A stretch of DNA of 23,815 nt from a virus: positions 1-23,815 of the IMG/VR virus record IMGVR_UViG_3300040815_001330, one strand, 5' to 3'. A program made the translations under genes and the position numbers. The notes under the pieces are model-generated. The model was not told the DNA's origin. It saw only the letters and a program-made list of their open reading frames with translations, and ran no database searches. Shown here in pieces: positions 9,432 through 23,815 of this stretch. How positions within the stretch are numbered: position 1 is the first letter of the stretch; the number at the start of each line of letters is the position of its first letter.

Positions 9432-9872
9432 ATGGCAAGACTACTAACGACTATTGGACTATTAATGGCAATGGCAACAAGTGCATTTGCAGAAGATGTT
9501 ACACTAGAAATGTGGAACAAAGACCCAGACGACAAAAAACGCAAAATGGTTTTCTCACAAGAGATTGTAACTATTGATGTAGGCGAAAGTGTTACTTGGT
9601 TGGCAACAGACAAAGGCCACAATGTACAAATGATTGATGGACCAGACGGTGTTAAACTGCCAGGTAAATCAAAAGTATCAAAAGATATAACACTGTCATT
9701 TGACACACCAGGTGTCTATGTATATGTTTGTACCCCACACGCAAGTATGGGTATGATCGGTATTGTTGTTGTCGGTGAACTTACACAAGAAGCTATTGAC
9801 GCAGTGCGTGACGCAAAACTACGTGGCAAGTCAAAGAAAAAGTTTGAGGCTCTGTTAGCAGAACTACCTTGA
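9432..9872 (+). CDS. Pseudoazurin-type blue copper protein, exported
   Basis: A periplasmic electron carrier of the cupredoxin family. Residues 1-20 are a signal peptide (basic start, LLTTIGLLMAMATSAFA, cut before ED). The mature part has the type 1 copper set: H63 in KGHNVQMIDG, then C100-TPH103-ASMG-M108, the same C-x2-H-x4-M spacing as pseudoazurin. The length (146, mature about 126) and the helical C-terminal extension (TQEAIDAVRDAKLRGKSKKK) are also pseudoazurin features. Pseudoazurins pass electrons between membrane complexes and periplasmic reductases or oxidases. AAAGGA lies upstream of the start. In a phage it would act in the host periplasm during infection, presumably to keep respiration going; that role is inferred. 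Confidence 0.93.
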   Translation: MARLLTTIGLLMAMATSAFAEDVTLEMWNKDPDDKKRKMVFSQEIVTIDVGESVTWLATDKGHNVQMIDGPDGVKLPGKSKVSKDITLSFDTPGVYVYVCTPHASMGMIGIVVVGELTQEAIDAVRDAKLRGKSKKKFEALLAELP

Positions 9873-17586: not shown

Positions 17587-17886
17587 ATGAGCGCAGATGT
17601 AAAACTAGATGAACGAATTAAAATTGATTTTAATGAACCAAAGAAATATAAAGTAATATTTTTAAATGACGATACTACTCCTATGGAGTTTGTTATTGAT
17701 GTATTAGTTAATATTTTTAAACATACACCAGATAGTGCTATGCAAATAACCATGCAAGTACACGAAGAAGGCAGTGGTGTTGTTGGTGTGTATTCACACG
17801 AAGTTGCTGAAATGAAAACAACTGAAACAGTAATCCTATCACGAAATCACGGATTTCATTTACAAATCAAGTTAGAGGAAGAATGA
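17587..17886 (+). CDS. clpS: ClpS-like adaptor of the ClpAP protease
   Basis: A 99-residue adaptor that delivers N-degron proteins to ClpAP and lowers ClpAP turnover of ssrA-tagged proteins in E. coli. The N-end pocket is intact: N27-D28-D29 (FLNDDTTPMEFV), M33 and H59 (MQVHEEG), equal to E. coli N34-D35-D36, M40 and H66. The fold continues through GVVGVYSHEVAEMKTTETVI. The N-terminal extension (SADVKLDERIKIDFNEPK) is short and acidic, as in ClpS. AGGAG precedes the ATG. It overlaps the heme oxygenase start (ATGA), so both are made together. A phage that also encodes tmRNA has reason to steer host proteolysis. Confidence 0.92.
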   Translation: MSADVKLDERIKIDFNEPKKYKVIFLNDDTTPMEFVIDVLVNIFKHTPDSAMQITMQVHEEGSGVVGVYSHEVAEMKTTETVILSRNHGFHLQIKLEEE

Positions 17887-18422
17887 GCAAACTTAAAGAA
17901 CTTACCTGGGCTAATCACCAGAAAGCAGAACGTACAGAACATGCCCGCAAACTGCTACACGGCATGACACCAGAAGAGTATCATAGATATTTGTACAATC
18001 AATATGTAATGTATGCTGTGCTGGAAAGCCAAGCAAAAACATATGGCGTATTAGAAGGCATTGAAGATATTGCAAGAGCAGATGCAATCCGTGCAGACGT
18101 TGAAGAACTAGAAACTGCACATGGTATTGAACGCAACGGAGACTTGCTGTGTCAAGTTGTTGCAGACTATACAGACTATTGTATGCACATGAAAGACCGA
18201 GAAGAGTTTCTAGCACACTTGTATGTACGTCACTTTGGTGATATGTATGGCGGCCAAATGATTAAAAAGCGTAATCCAGGCAGCGGCAAGATGTATGAGT
18301 TTAATAATGTAGAAGAACTAAAAACTACAGTACGTGCTATGCTTACAGACGACATGGCAGATGAAGCAAACACATGTTTTGAGTTTGCAATGCAACTATT
18401 TGAGGAGTTAGACAGTGAGTGA
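17883..18422 (+). CDS. Heme oxygenase (biliverdin-forming)
   Basis: Opens heme to biliverdin, CO and iron using reduced ferredoxin. 179 residues; all-helical HO fold. The proximal heme ligand is H12 in LTWANHQKAERTEHARKLLH, and the distal helix carries the glycine motif HFGDMYGGQM (GDLSGGQ in cyanobacterial HO1). PEEYHRYLYNQYVMYAVLES is the usual second helix. It is somewhat shorter than cyanobacterial HO1, as phage versions tend to be. It starts inside the ClpS stop (ATGA) and ends eight bases inside the bilin reductase gene, so clpS, ho and the reductase form one coupled unit. The product biliverdin is the substrate of the next enzyme. Confidence 0.94.
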   Translation: MSKLKELTWANHQKAERTEHARKLLHGMTPEEYHRYLYNQYVMYAVLESQAKTYGVLEGIEDIARADAIRADVEELETAHGIERNGDLLCQVVADYTDYCMHMKDREEFLAHLYVRHFGDMYGGQMIKKRNPGSGKMYEFNNVEELKTTVRAMLTDDMADEANTCFEFAMQLFEELDSE

Positions 18423-19101
18423 AGTTTGGGATACACTGATTAAAATACAAGATAGATTGATCGAACGTTTTGATGCAACTGGTCAAGAATACAACGAAAT
18501 AGGCATGGATAGATTTAATCAACCAGGTTGGATCAACCGTGTATGGACCAGTGAGAACTATCGTAGAGCCCACATTGACGTAGTTGATGCACGAGACAGC
18601 AAAGGTTTGTGGATGATGCATTGCTGTGTGTTTCCTCACTTGGACAATGACGGTCCTATCTTTGGATTAGATGTTATTGCAGGTAAAAACAAAATCACAG
18701 GTTACTTCCATGATTACTCTCCAACGTCTTTGGAGTATCATGAAATGATTGAAGCATTCGGAGATGAAGTAGCAAAACTAGAATGGCGCAAGCCACGTGA
18801 ATTACCAGAATGGGCAAAGGCTATATTTACTGAACATATGGTTGCAGCAGGTAATGTAAACAGCACTGAAGAACTAGAACAACTTGTGGAACTAAGTTTT
18901 GACAGTATTGACAACTATTTAGAATACATTGGTTCCTACAACGGAACAGGTAAAGAAGAAGCAGGCAAAGCAGCACAAAATCGTTATGCACATTATCAAA
19001 AACAAAATCCACATACTCCTAAAACAATGACCAGTTTAGGACTTGACGAAGAGGATGTAAGAGTATTCGTACAAGAATGTTTATTTCCTGATATCGAATA
19101 A
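18415..19101 (+). CDS. pcyX: Ferredoxin-dependent bilin reductase, PcyX/PebS-like
   Basis: 228 residues from GTG 18415, supported by AGGAG at 18403-18407. FDBR features: ENYRRAHIDVVDARDSKGLW, then MMHCCVFPHLDNDGPIFGLD with H69 and D86 at the positions of the catalytic His and Asp of the family, ITGYFHDYSP, and the C-terminal block YAHYQKQNPHTPK ending VQECLFP. These enzymes reduce biliverdin to phycobilins; cyanophage PebS makes phycoerythrobilin in two steps. Phage reductases outside the cyanophages, called PcyX and thought to come from alphaproteobacterial phages, also make phycoerythrobilin. Context here (permuted tmRNA, SAR11-like gene set) argues for PcyX over PebS. The exact product cannot be read from sequence. 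Confidence 0.88.
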   Translation: MSEVWDTLIKIQDRLIERFDATGQEYNEIGMDRFNQPGWINRVWTSENYRRAHIDVVDARDSKGLWMMHCCVFPHLDNDGPIFGLDVIAGKNKITGYFHDYSPTSLEYHEMIEAFGDEVAKLEWRKPRELPEWAKAIFTEHMVAAGNVNSTEELEQLVELSFDSIDNYLEYIGSYNGTGKEEAGKAAQNRYAHYQKQNPHTPKTMTSLGLDEEDVRVFVQECLFPDIE

Positions 19102-20209: not shown

Positions 20210-20683
20210 ATGCGCAATACTTTTATCATATCAATGAGTTGGTTGTTTATAAGTAGCTCAATAGTTTCAGCTGATTTAGTACATGAATTCAAATCGCCAG
20301 CATTTAGTGGGACTGGATACAGTGCCCATATGCTAAGTCAAGAACAGCTCACATTTAATCGACGTAAGGACATTGATGATAAGGCGCAGCGTGAAGCTGA
20401 TCGTTTAGAGCGTGAGCTAGAAAACACAGTTCTCAACAAGTTTATACGTAATCTTGAGTCACGTATATATGCAACACTCTCTAAGCAAATGGTGGACAAT
20501 ATGTTTGCAGCATGTGGAGAAGAAGATCAACCAGCATGTGCTAACACTGGCACAACTGAAGTTGAAGGTGCTACGATTACATGGACCAAAGATGAAACTG
20601 ATGGTAGTATCACACTTGTTATAGACGGCCCAGATGGCTATACAGAGATTACTATTCCAGGCGCTGGGGAGTTTAACTTTTGA
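20210..20683 (+). CDS. csgF: CsgF-like curli assembly protein
   Basis: 157 residues with signal peptide (FIISMSWLFISSSIVSA, cut before DLVHEF). The mature start DLVHEFKSPAFSGTGYSAHM matches CsgF, whose N-terminus (TFQFRNPNFGGNP-like) plugs into the CsgG pore; the aromatic-Gly-rich stretch and the following helix (AQREADRLERELENTVLNKF) and ITWTKDETDGSITLVIDGPD sheet also fit. E. coli CsgF is 138 residues. It couples CsgG to the nucleator at the cell surface. A CACG-type pair of cysteines (AACGEEDQPACAN) is an addition. The start has no Shine-Dalgarno but GGTAAATA ends five bases before. csgG follows in a TTGA overlap. Confidence 0.87.
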   Translation: MRNTFIISMSWLFISSSIVSADLVHEFKSPAFSGTGYSAHMLSQEQLTFNRRKDIDDKAQREADRLERELENTVLNKFIRNLESRIYATLSKQMVDNMFAACGEEDQPACANTGTTEVEGATITWTKDETDGSITLVIDGPDGYTEITIPGAGEFNF

Positions 20684-21465
20684 AGTATCTATCTTTCATA
20701 GCAGTATTATTCCTTGCTGGATGTGCAAGCATGGGTCAAGTTCCTAAAACGCTACAACAACCAGCAAAACTACAATCCAATCCAATGGTAGAAGAACTAA
20801 ATGATCTAAAGCCATTAAATGGTCCAGTGATGACAGTAGGATTATATAGTTTTACTGACAAAACTGGGCAGCGTAAACCAGCAGACAATGTTGCTAACCT
20901 ATCTAGTGCAGTAACACAAGGTGCAGAAGTTTGGGTAATAGATGCACTATTACAAGCAGGTGAAGGTACTTGGTTTGAAGTAGTAGAACGTTCGGGCATG
21001 GACAATATAATCCGTGAAAGACAGCTGATACGCAACACTAGAGAAAACTACGAAAAAGAAAATGCAACTCCTCTAGCACCAATGAAGTTTGCAGGCATAC
21101 TTATCGAAGGTGGCATTGTAGGATATGATAGTAATGTGACCACAGGCGGCAATGGTGCTATGTATTTGGGCATCGGAACAGCAGCAGAGTATAGAGTTGA
21201 CACAGTAACCGTAGCAATGCGTTTGGTCAGTGTTAGCACAGGTAGAGTGTTAGTAAGTGTAGCAGCAGAAAAATCAATAGCAAGTTATAGACAAGGTGCT
21301 AATGCATTTAAGTTCTTAGAGTTAGGCACAGAAGTTTTAGAGATTGAAACAGGATATAGTGTTAACGAACCAACCAACTATGCAGTTCGTGAAGCTATTG
21401 AAGCAGCAGTAATAGAATTAATCTATCAAGGTGCAGATCAAAACTTATGGCAATTCAAAGAATGA
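20680..21465 (+). CDS. csgG: CsgG-like curli secretion lipoprotein (outer-membrane pore)
   Basis: 261 residues from TTG 20680 (TTGA overlap with csgF; GGGGAG at 20666-20671 supports it). Signal peptide and lipobox FLAGC, so C15 is lipidated. It tracks CsgG: MTVGLYSFTDKTGQRKPADN, SSAVTQGAEVWVIDALLQAG, WFEVVERSGMDNIIRERQLI, ILIEGGIVGYDSN, TVTVAMRLVSVSTGRVLVSV, and the C-terminal NYAVREAIEAAVIELI. CsgG forms a nine-fold ring with a 36-strand barrel and a constriction that passes unfolded curlin. The E. coli constriction residues Tyr51, Asn55 and Phe56 align to a region (RKPADNVANLSSAV) with N73-L74 and no aromatic, so the channel may differ. The last 28 bases overlap the convergent regulator gene. 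Confidence 0.93.
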   Translation: MKYLSFIAVLFLAGCASMGQVPKTLQQPAKLQSNPMVEELNDLKPLNGPVMTVGLYSFTDKTGQRKPADNVANLSSAVTQGAEVWVIDALLQAGEGTWFEVVERSGMDNIIRERQLIRNTRENYEKENATPLAPMKFAGILIEGGIVGYDSNVTTGGNGAMYLGIGTAAEYRVDTVTVAMRLVSVSTGRVLVSVAAEKSIASYRQGANAFKFLELGTEVLEIETGYSVNEPTNYAVREAIEAAVIELIYQGADQNLWQFKE

Positions 21466-21740
21466 TTATAGCGTTTTATTTTTGCTAGTAATGTTTCTCG
21501 TTTAATACCCAATCGTCGAGCAGCATGTGTACGATTTCCGTTAGATTCAGTTAGTGCCTTTGAAATCTTATCTATTACAAAGTCATCTACCTCATTGTGC
21601 AAACAATATTCAGTTTGATCATTGTTCGTTTCAGCTCCTACTTCGCCCCAAAGTTCATCAAATGTTTCCCAAAAGGCCTGCTGTTCTTTGTGTGTTTGTT
21701 CTGCTTTTTTAAGTGCTTTCATGATTAATCTTAATTCCAT
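21438..21740 (-). CDS. Fis-type helix-turn-helix regulator, only minus-strand gene
   Basis: 100 residues read on the minus strand from ATG 21740-21738; a second in-frame ATG begins at 21722. The C-terminal part DKISKALTESNGNRTHAARR then LGIKRETLLAKIKRYN is a Fis / NtrC-type HTH_8: helix, the NRTxAARxLGI turn, recognition helix. The N-terminal half (ALKKAEQTHKEQQAFWETFD) is a charged helix, so it lacks the receiver and AAA domains of NtrC. It overlaps csgG tail-to-tail by 28 bases and faces the curlin gene head-to-head across 111 bases with a palindrome and divergent late-type boxes. Best read as a local regulator of the curli-like cluster; direct evidence is lacking. Confidence 0.85.
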   Translation of the reverse strand: MELRLIMKALKKAEQTHKEQQAFWETFDELWGEVGAETNNDQTEYCLHNEVDDFVIDKISKALTESNGNRTHAARRLGIKRETLLAKIKRYNHSLNCHKF

Positions 21741-21851: not shown

Positions 21852-22610
21852 ATGAAAGCATATTCTATATTATTAGCTATGGCATTAAGCATTACGGTGT
21901 TTTCAGTACGAGCTAACGAGATATACATAACACAAATCGGTGACACACTGGATTTAGACATAACACAGGACGGTCTTGACAACGAGTTTGGTGACAGTAC
22001 TACTGATGCTGGACTCTACGGAGATAGTATGGTTTTTAGTATTACACAAACTGGAGACTATAACACCATAGACGCTATTATTGCAGGCGACAGCTACACA
22101 GGAACTTGGCAGTTTACTGGCAACAGCAACAATGTCGACTTACTTTGTAATAGTTCTGCTACTACAGGCGGCGGCAACTGTGATAATGTACAACTTGATA
22201 TCACTACAACAGGTGACTCAAATACGTTTGACTTCAAAATAGGTGAAACCAACGATGCTGGTAATGCTACTATAACATTTACTGTTGATGGCGATGGCAA
22301 CCTAGTTGATATGGACTTGGATGGTACTGATGCTAACATCACTGTCACAATAGATAACAGTGCAAATACAGCTGTCGCAGGACAAACTATTACAAGTGCT
22401 ACTGATTCAACACTAACTGCTAACTCACCGGGCAATATTATTGACTTATCCATAAGTGGCGATGGCGACAGCTTAGGACACACTGTAACACTAGATATCA
22501 CCGGAGGAGCAAATATCTATACGATTACACAAAGTGGTATCTATGACAACTTAGTAGATATTACTTCAACTGGGGACGGAAACACAGTTGATATTACGCA
22601 ATCCGACTAA
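21852..22610 (+). CDS. Curlin-like amyloid subunit (CsgA/CsgB type)
   Basis: 252 residues; signal peptide 1-21 (SILLAMALSITVFSVRA), mature start NEIYITQIGD. The mature chain is made of curlin-type repeats, G-x-x-N-x-x-x-I-x-Q-x-G, here Asp-rich: YITQIGDTLDLDITQDGLDN, VFSITQTGDYNTIDAIIAGD, then less regular Thr/Asp units, and YTITQSGIYDNLVDITSTGD GNTVDITQSD at the end. Repeat spacing in the middle is irregular, and the two Cys in LLCNSSATTGGGNC are unlike E. coli curlins; they may form a disulphide. Strongly acidic. Secreted through CsgG/CsgF it should form surface amyloid. Ribosome site GGAGG is excellent. The FecR-protein gene starts inside its last codons. Confidence 0.88.
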   Translation: MKAYSILLAMALSITVFSVRANEIYITQIGDTLDLDITQDGLDNEFGDSTTDAGLYGDSMVFSITQTGDYNTIDAIIAGDSYTGTWQFTGNSNNVDLLCNSSATTGGGNCDNVQLDITTTGDSNTFDFKIGETNDAGNATITFTVDGDGNLVDMDLDGTDANITVTIDNSANTAVAGQTITSATDSTLTANSPGNIIDLSISGDGDSLGHTVTLDITGGANIYTITQSGIYDNLVDITSTGDGNTVDITQSD

Positions 22611-23718
22611 ACTTTTATGTATAATATTCTTTGCGCTGGCATTTGCAGATATGGCCAATGCAGTTCCTATTGGCGAGATTGCCGAATCTAAAGGCTCGAG
22701 TACAATCAAGCGAGACAAAGAAGCATACACAGGCGAAGTAGGGCTTGGATTACAAATGAACGATAATGTTGTAACAGGCAAAGGCAGACTAAGATTAGAC
22801 TTTATAGACGATACTAGAGTTGATGTAACAGAAAACTCACGTATGACTATTGATGAATTTATATATGACCCTGCTACACAAAAAGGTGCATTGTCAATGA
22901 AAGCAACACTAGGTGCAGTGAGATATGCTAGTGGACAAATAGCAAAAAATAGTAGACAAAGAGTAAACATACGCACACCCAGTGCAACCATCAACGTGCG
23001 TGGCACAGACTTTATGATGATTGTAGACGAGATCGGCGGCAGTATGGTCACACTATTGCCCAGTTGTGATATGAGTGGTGCTTGTGTAATAGGTGAGATT
23101 GAAGTAGAATCAGATGCTGGCACAGTTATAATGAATCAAGCATATCAAACTACCGTTGTAGCACATGCCGGAGCAACACCAGCTAGACCAGTAATACTAG
23201 ATCTCCCAGAAGATATGCTGAACTCAATGTTGATTGTTCGTAAAGTAAGTCCGTATACAGAGGAAATAGAAAAACAGTATCCAGTCACTAACTTACTAGA
23301 TATTGACTTCTTAAAGTTTGATGAACTTGATAAAGATCCACTTATTGAAAGTATCAAAAATATATGGGTCACAGATTTAGACAACACCACATACTTAGAT
23401 GAAGAGTTTTATGATGCAATGGCAAGACAGCTTGCTGAAATATTAGCACAATGGTTTGATGAACTTACTATACAAAATGCAGCATTTTTTGAAGAAAAGT
23501 TTTTTGGGTTAGACCCAGAAACAAATATTTTTTATGATGAAGAATATCCATACTATCTGTTAAGCAGAGCAGAAGGTGACCAACACTTTTTTCGCCTAAG
23601 GTTGGGCCAGGGTTATAGTTATAGTGTGGATATGGCACAAGGAGGATTTTATACTTATGGATATTTGGTGGGCGTCGGCGGTGACAACACTATTACTATT
23701 AATCAACACGACTACTAG
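22588..23718 (+). CDS. Exported FecR-domain protein with C-terminal curlin-like end
   Basis: 376 residues from TTG 22588, 23 bases inside the curlin gene. Signal peptide LLCIIFFALAFADMANA (cut before VPIG). A FecR domain follows at about 35-165: GEIAESKGSSTIKRDKEAYT, NDNVVTGKGRLRLDFIDDTR, SRMTIDEFIYDP, VNIRTPSATINVRGTDFMMI. FecR domains of this exported kind occur in periplasmic or surface proteins, without the TonB-signalling partners. Residues 200-330 are acidic and helical (YDAMARQLAEILAQWFDELT), not recognised. The last residues, VGGDNTITINQHDY, fit the curlin half repeat seen at the end of the preceding gene (GDGNTVDITQSD). This suggests a protein that can dock on, or nucleate, the fibre. 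Confidence 0.82.
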   Translation: MILRNPTKLLCIIFFALAFADMANAVPIGEIAESKGSSTIKRDKEAYTGEVGLGLQMNDNVVTGKGRLRLDFIDDTRVDVTENSRMTIDEFIYDPATQKGALSMKATLGAVRYASGQIAKNSRQRVNIRTPSATINVRGTDFMMIVDEIGGSMVTLLPSCDMSGACVIGEIEVESDAGTVIMNQAYQTTVVAHAGATPARPVILDLPEDMLNSMLIVRKVSPYTEEIEKQYPVTNLLDIDFLKFDELDKDPLIESIKNIWVTDLDNTTYLDEEFYDAMARQLAEILAQWFDELTIQNAAFFEEKFFGLDPETNIFYDEEYPYYLLSRAEGDQHFFRLRLGQGYSYSVDMAQGGFYTYGYLVGVGGDNTITINQHDY

Positions 23719-23815
23719 TAATGCAAATGAAATTTATATGTACCAAGTTGGTGACAACAATGCGTTAACCATCTTGCAAGAAGGCGACGATAATTATATC
23801 AGTGGAATACCTGGT
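23657..23815 (+). CDS. Second curlin-like protein (3' partial)
   Basis: A frame from ATG 23657 runs open to the window end. It encodes a signal peptide (WWASAVTTLLLLINTTTSNA) and a mature start NEIYMYQVGDNNALTILQEG, with GDDNYISGIPG after it: two curlin half repeats and the same NEIY start as the curlin at 21852. AAGGAGG at 23639-23645 is 11 bases upstream. It overlaps the last 62 bases of the FecR-protein gene in another frame. Its length and end lie outside the window. It may be the nucleator-like or the major subunit. Confidence 0.82.
   Translation, partial: MDIWWASAVTTLLLLINTTTSNANEIYMYQVGDNNALTILQEGDDNYISGIPG

Follow-up and report, generated by a model that had tools for sequence, protein, structure and literature searches.

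A FecR-domain protein of phage curli operons ends in a conserved curlin-like unit, suggesting a role in docking curli fibres to the envelope of the infected cell

The right end of the window, by which we mean the whole stretch of DNA analysed here (positions 1 to 23,815 of the 23,815-base virus record IMGVR_UViG_3300040815_001330), is occupied by a phage curli (T8SS) operon encoding, on the plus strand, CsgF, CsgG, a first curlin (curlin-1), a FecR-domain protein and the start of a second curlin (curlin-2). CsgF (20210..20683, Pfam 4.1e-11) and the outer-membrane channel CsgG (20680..21465, Pfam 1.3e-50) are followed by the 252-aa curlin-1 (21852..22610), whose match to Pfam Curlin_rpt lies just above the cut-off (3.8e-4, 20.8 vs 20.7 bits). 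The FecR gene (22588..23718, 376 aa, TTG start), recognised as an ORF with matches to Pfam FecR, PHROG 37870 and 28 relatives, is tightly embedded between the two curlins: its putative N-terminal export segment overlaps the 3' end of curlin-1, and its last 62 nt (the last ~20 codons) also encode the start of curlin-2, which begins with ATG at 23657 behind an AGGAGG at 23640-23645 and leaves the window (23657..23815, Pfam Curlin_rpt 1.3e-4 on the visible frame). Between csgG and curlin-1, on the opposite strand (21438-21740, minus), lies a gene for a Fis-type HTH protein (PF02954, 1.8e-10), which could be a candidate regulator of the operon. This protein gave 67 tblastn rows in the fetched viral loci, the window copy and repeated contigs counted, and among the 25 matches listed those in CsgG-anchored loci are located directly 3' of csgG on the minus strand.

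The 376-aa product is composed of an export-type N-terminal segment, a FecR domain, a linker with a helix and a six-strand C-terminal unit (~307-376). As TTG is simply the mechanical first start in a frame open from 22558, translation may in fact begin a few codons away. Residues 1-26 (22588..22665) show on inspection a hydrophobic core with an ANA-type end and can be read as a putative Sec signal peptide or an uncleaved N-terminal anchor. The FecR domain (residues 28-205, 22669..23202) matches Pfam FecR (PF04773) at residues 60-152, above the cut-off (E 2.2e-8, 34.9 vs 24 bits), and the same family was matched at E<=1 in 16/16 members of a homologue alignment. VIA-align relates this domain to the signalling domain of PupR (6ovk, Z 14.7, 135 residues) and to a Parabacteroides anti-sigma factor (4m0n, Z 13.7). 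The fold is therefore shared with the FecR/PupR anti-sigma regulators; unlike them, however, the window protein cannot accommodate a cytoplasmic anti-sigma part ahead of its export-type segment, at most ~18 residues preceding the hydrophobic stretch even if the frame is read from its very beginning at 22558. Pfam searches and inspection of the frame found no such part; besides FecR and the sub-threshold Curlin_rpt match described below, no domain was matched at E<=1. A classical FecI/FecR cell-surface signalling regulator is thus ruled out on architecture. When the loci of the window, HTVC008M and Melnitz were compared for an ECF sigma factor or a TonB-dependent transducer, the named neighbours were CsgF, CsgG, curlins, the cyclase and some hypothetical proteins. 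The N-terminal part of the FecR domain also resembles 5ix9, a 'Cell surface anchoring domain' that we take to be part of a Marinomonas adhesin (Z 8.7 and 7.0, 73 residues; the tool itself cautions that a Z under 8 may reflect only a common arrangement). PHROG 37870, for which no function is given, matches residues 12-374 at 3e-95, and hence the tail belongs inside a known protein family.

The FecR-domain protein terminates in GGDNTITINQHDY and curlin-1 in GDGNTVDITQSD. The original prediction, that the two ends share a G-x-x-N-T-x-x-I-x-Q pattern, describes a real match, with two or three residues following the pattern in each protein. It had also taken the tail for a curlin half repeat, and here the likeness to curlin stood while the extent had to be revised: Q351 and Q373 are 22 residues apart, corresponding to one curlin repeat (~22 residues), so that about one full repeat is present (residues 345-373, 23620..23706), probably as part of a curlin-like unit of ~65 residues. 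Both glutamines are invariant in 47/47 non-redundant homologues; in a set of 139 sequences reaching down to 35% identity Q373 never varies, and conservation of Q351, I369 and I371 is 90% or higher.

Viral loci for a wider survey of the tail came from five FecR-query scans of viral contigs, one yielding 28 loci and the others the best 80 of 370, 481, 543 and 447 relatives, and from one CsgG scan (17 loci), with many contigs repeated. A FecR ORF was found in 355/357 viral sources, window included; the two sources without one (L165 and L171) were brought in by the CsgG scan, and their sequence stops ~1.2 kb past the CsgG match. This gave 210 distinct FecR ORFs, 201 of them complete. A first regular expression for the end proved too strict, matching 102 of the 210 and leaving 99 unmatched and 9 open-ended, and nearly all of the unmatched ends have the motif on reading. 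Because the looser patterns were picked after seeing the sequences, control ORFs were scored with the same patterns. A loose end ([hydrophobic]-x-[hydrophobic]-x-Q within 11 residues of the C-terminus) is present in 199/201 complete distinct homologues and a strict one ([IV]-x-[IV]-x-Q within 5 residues) in 195/201, compared with 48/1832 and 6/1832, respectively, of distinct plus-strand control ORFs of at least 60 aa located away from curlins, and 20/730 and 2/730 of those of at least 120 aa, many of these control frames not being genes. Of the two homologues missed by the loose pattern, one (L323) is a 283-aa ORF with the rest of its C-half in another frame downstream (5.1e-26), and the other (L402) has the motif ~15 residues further in. 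The tail is therefore kept in homologues, whose lack of a repeat-like end had been named as grounds for abandoning the prediction, and a chance ten-residue match is ruled out by this conservation together with the controls. A divergent clade of phage FecR proteins (L369-L407), mostly 35-40% identical to the window protein, has ends such as INISQDGSAVYQQVNKGGSTTINIIQK, which by eye are closer to the canonical curlin repeat. Recurring LDxDFL-like motifs (LDIDFL...LDxxFL) in the linker (~237-290) are also clearest by eye in this clade.

Could the tail have been imposed by the overlapping signal-peptide frame of curlin-2, rather than selected in the FecR frame? The 62-nt overlap in the window speaks for this, but homologues with little overlap should then have lost the tail. 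The next ORF starts with ATG in 172 of the 199 pattern-bearing homologues (L323 and L402 fall outside this set), and in 50 of the 172 the overlap, measured from the most 5' ATG, is 4 nt or less or absent, GTG or TTG starts being able to lengthen some. These 50 retain the tail, indicating that the overlap did not force it. Furthermore, the I-x-I-x-Q codons vary freely at the third position, and A occupies position 1 of the two hydrophobic codons in 189 and 187 of the 199, codons which could equally have started with G, C or T; the third base of the Gln codon is A or G, its positions 1-2 being fixed by the choice of rows. Taken together, the low-overlap homologues and the codon pattern show that the FecR frame is the one kept, and on this evidence an artefact of the overlapping frame is very unlikely indeed.

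The observation is real, conserved and larger than first noted. In hhalign, the last 46 columns of the FecR alignment matched the last 46 of curlin-1 over 33 columns with a score of 21.8 (probability 66%, E 5.4e-5 for a single pair), and both glutamines were paired. None of 200 column permutations reached this score (maximum 13.4), the reversed tail scored 10.1 against the curlin-1 C-terminus, and no score above 11.1 came from the C-terminus of CsgG, CsgF or the cyclase. When 54 windows of the FecR alignment were scored, the last reached 19.8 (13 aligned columns), the four overlapping windows before it 12.6-13.1, and the rest 10.5 or less. Searched against 1985 non-FecR ORFs from 47 sources, the tail model hit only FecR-adjoining ORFs among the 61 domain matches listed (best E 0.036). 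An HMM of the C-terminal half (48 sequences) produced 43 matches at E<=1 in 3174 distinct non-FecR ORFs, comprising 22 downstream neighbours, 19 upstream neighbours and 2 ORFs elsewhere, with neighbours, defined by position and not by curlin-repeat content, accounting for 434 of the 3174. Among the downstream matches, one is what remains of a broken FecR gene; the two elsewhere align to the helical part. For a curlin neighbour the best value was E 7.6e-6, and three lie at E<=1e-3 besides the broken-gene remainder, single-sequence matches being mostly weak; curlin-1 of locus L372 was aligned over 72 residues to its very end. Reversed ORFs gave no matches with this HMM, and neither did 11 shuffles. 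In the reciprocal direction, a model of the curlin-1 C-terminus recovered FecR C-termini weakly (best E 0.012; 124/201 at E<=10, 74 ending within 6 residues of the C-terminus).

Pfam Curlin_rpt (PF07012) matches the window protein at residues 346-373 (E 0.039) with 14.3 bits for the whole protein and 15.5 for the C-half, below the cut-off of 20.7, and is detected in only 2/48 C-halves and 2/16 members of another alignment; formal membership of the tail in this family is rejected for that reason. Across the 48 C-halves, no Pfam family matched more than 3 at E<=1. We conclude from the profiles that the C-terminal ~65 residues very probably constitute a diverged curlin-type unit.

The same strict end closes curlin-1, the ORF just upstream, in 185/198 cases. 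An end pattern shared by curlin-1 and FecR could mean that I-x-I-x-Q is a C-terminal handling signal common to T8SS substrates, recognised by CsgG/CsgF, and that the FecR-domain protein is itself secreted cargo. We give this reading little credence. In curlin-2, taken as the next ORF downstream, the strict end occurs in only 59/157 cases and the loose one in 114/157, the likeness spans 33 to 72 residues, and in E. coli it is the N-terminus of CsgA that serves as the signal for CsgG.

The matching phage records are those of Pelagibacter phage HTVC008M (43.8% identity, two records) and of four Methylophilales phages Melnitz (41.6%). The gene order of the window recurs in HTVC008M and in two Melnitz records, where the cyclase follows curlin-2, and in Melnitz-3 both neighbours of the FecR gene contain Pfam curlin repeats. 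More broadly, csgG and csgF lie upstream in 172/172 homologues with at least 3 kb of upstream sequence. Since the sample was gathered mainly with FecR queries, the count places this FecR family in curli operons without implying that every phage curli operon has a FecR gene.

Structure prediction depended strongly on alignment depth. From 45 sequences, AlphaFold2 produced a good model of the FecR domain alone, most of residues 352-376 falling under pLDDT 50. With 139 sequences, the mean pLDDT was 83.3, with residues 31-200 at 90-98, residues 211-270 mostly low, a helix at 269-301 (23392..23490) after this low-confidence linker, and six strands (314-319, 322-329, 333-340, 345-351, 354-361 and 367-373, in a stretch at pLDDT 84-95) forming the C-terminal unit (residues 307-376, 23506..23715) whose C-half model matches the curlin neighbours. 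Every second strand starts 19-23 residues later, which is near the curlin repeat length. The original prediction was to be given up if the tail turned out to be an ordinary strand of a closed domain; what was found is a confident strand of a six-strand unit, in a model that fits a curlin-like solenoid or an antiparallel meander. In residue couplings, strand 4 pairs with strand 6 in parallel at +22, ranking 1/1378 among parallel diagonals (mean z 1.45, against a shuffled-column maximum of 1.22 in 20). We give this little weight, because an antiparallel pairing scores as high (1.55), half-samples disagree (offset 22 was top in 1/4) and shuffled columns equal the offset means (0.47-0.56).

These results are partly compatible with the C-terminal unit being an ordinary closed beta domain without any fibre role, whose curlin likeness arose by convergence from beta-rich sequence and a conserved Gln: the six strands are confident and joined by short turns, antiparallel couplings link strands 2-3 and 3-4, and the Pfam curlin match is sub-threshold. 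Such a domain would explain neither why permuted, reversed and shuffled controls do not give the curlin likeness, nor why all testable homologues sit in curli operons, and we assign it a slight probability. Foldseek and VIA-align returned no convincing fold match for the C-terminal unit; as their lists were filled by the FecR domain, the missing match shows little. The profile search against sequences of solved structures gave three matches (E 0.24 to 0.78), and two phage entries named 'FecR protein' came from the viral structure library.

A different partner for the FecR domain is suggested by the downstream gene. A cyclase ORF is found within 4.5 kb downstream in 102/121 homologues with at least 3.5 kb of downstream sequence, and the two cyclases scanned, from HTVC008M and Melnitz, carry CHASE2 and cyclase domains. 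Cellular genomes point the same way. In the class of G002 (a Rhodospirillales MAG), 51 of 289 genomes have FecR model matches at E<=1e-20; all 51 also have CHASE2 matches, and in 19/51 the two lie within 6 kb of each other by hand comparison, about one being expected by chance on a rough estimate. None of these FecR matches, among those listed, extends beyond model position 208/362, and the surrounding open frames reach up to 6913 aa. A search of 398 genomes from the phylum of G002 found no match to the C-terminal half (its control search recovered 3/3, two being model members), and the FecR model found no FecR in five curli loci fetched from the class (L158-L162). In this sample, therefore, the FecR half behaves as a general exported module, often beside CHASE2, and the curlin-like half occurs only with curli, on phage-like contigs.

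FecR-domain proteins are described in other bacteria too, as far as the accessible text of the papers goes: exported LysM-FecR proteins of Burkholderia are encoded beside CHASE2 histidine kinases in a biofilm operon (PMC5192318), and SMc02177 of Sinorhizobium, one of the targets of the cAMP-dependent regulator Clr, has a FecR domain (PMC5498481). The Burkholderia proteins share with the window protein the signal peptide, the FecR domain and the CHASE2 gene neighbour; they differ in having LysM and not a curlin-like end, and a histidine kinase in place of a cyclase, and no curli genes are named in the accessible part of that paper (PMC5192318). The FecR domain could be the periplasmic partner of the CHASE2-cyclase, with the curlin-like end reading the amount or the state of periplasmic curlin subunits and curli assembly being coupled to cAMP. 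Against this, 19/121 homologues lack such a cyclase by the model and still keep the tail pattern, and the C-terminus is precisely what curli phages add to the FecR domain. We regard the sensor role as a serious rival, if a rather unlikely one, and it is compatible with a docking role.

The export-type segment, the FecR domain, the conserved curlin-like C-terminus and the position behind csgF/csgG suggest, at the level of sequence, that the FecR-domain protein docks curli fibres to the envelope of the infected cell. The best explanation, which we put forward tentatively, is an exported curli-docking protein whose FecR domain resides in the periplasm and whose curlin-type unit joins the curlin stack, tethering and maybe seeding the fibres. 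The FecR domain would fold and stay in the periplasm, at the inner membrane if the N-terminal segment is uncleaved; the C-terminal unit would reach to or through CsgG and stack on the curlin cross-beta stack; and the stacked unit would tether fibres to the envelope and may seed them in a CsgB-like manner. In E. coli, CsgB and CsgF tether and seed the fibres. CsgB resembles the window protein in its curlin-type repeat, in being encoded with CsgG and CsgF, and in the tethering proposed here, and differs in lacking a FecR domain; an anchor or nucleator acting in place of CsgB, as originally predicted, is plausible. The docking reading is drawn from the end pattern, the hhalign and C-half HMM results with their controls, csgG and csgF upstream, the likeness to 5ix9 and the fact that the C-half was unseen in the 398 genomes. 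Counting against it are the Curlin_rpt score below cut-off, the weak single-sequence matches, the low-confidence tail in the AlphaFold2 model from 45 sequences, the ambiguous couplings, the missing fold match and, from the accessible portion of PMC9004378, the lack of clumping in Melnitz infections under the culture conditions used.

The FecR half may in addition report curli status to the downstream cyclase. Whether docking and sensing are combined in a two-ended phage envelope protein, with FecR and curlin-repeat modules holding or seeding amyloid and reporting its assembly inward through the CHASE2-cyclase, is rather doubtful; if they are, phage curli would have built-in anchoring and feedback, needing neither CsgB nor CsgE.

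The claim that no protein of this design had been described needs care. The FecR gene of phage curli operons is already published: as far as the available text of PMC9599517 (2022) goes, FecR and a cyclase were reported in pelagiphage T8SS operons widespread in marine viral data, with the same gene in the same place (CsgF, CsgG, curlin, FecR, often a second curlin and the cyclase), and FecR was read as a putative ferric citrate/iron-linked regulator, with no mention of the curlin-like C-terminus in that text. What appears to be new here is the curlin-like end, no description of which was found in the accessible texts of the open-licence literature searched. Our results suggest that the name 'iron regulator' misleads when applied to FecR in phage curli operons. 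Published ideas on the purpose of these operons range from sibling capture to a lysis pore; the accessible part of PMC9004378 argues for a lysis role and describes Melnitz as being without csgA and csgB. A conserved protein combining an envelope domain with a curlin-like end speaks for genuine fibres being produced and attached to the cell, and it offers a concrete target for tests.

Several features of the relatives and of the window lie outside this argument. Curlin-2 of HTVC008M (L001:7097-8422) has a PA14 domain (2.7e-6) before its curlin repeats, perhaps a carbohydrate-binding head. A scan of bacterial genome contigs gave two loci, one with the FecR domain only (L034) and one with a curli operon (L033), in which CsgF, CsgG, a curlin and FecR are located on a 6757-base contig binned with a Flavobacteriaceae MAG; the latter is probably a viral contig. 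Upstream of the operon, at 17883-19101, the window itself has overlapping genes for a heme oxygenase (3.2e-15) and a ferredoxin-dependent bilin reductase (1.5e-16), and at 9432-9872 one for a plastocyanin-like protein (8e-15). Together these form a set for pigments or electron transfer, here in a phage with relatives that infect SAR11 and OM43.
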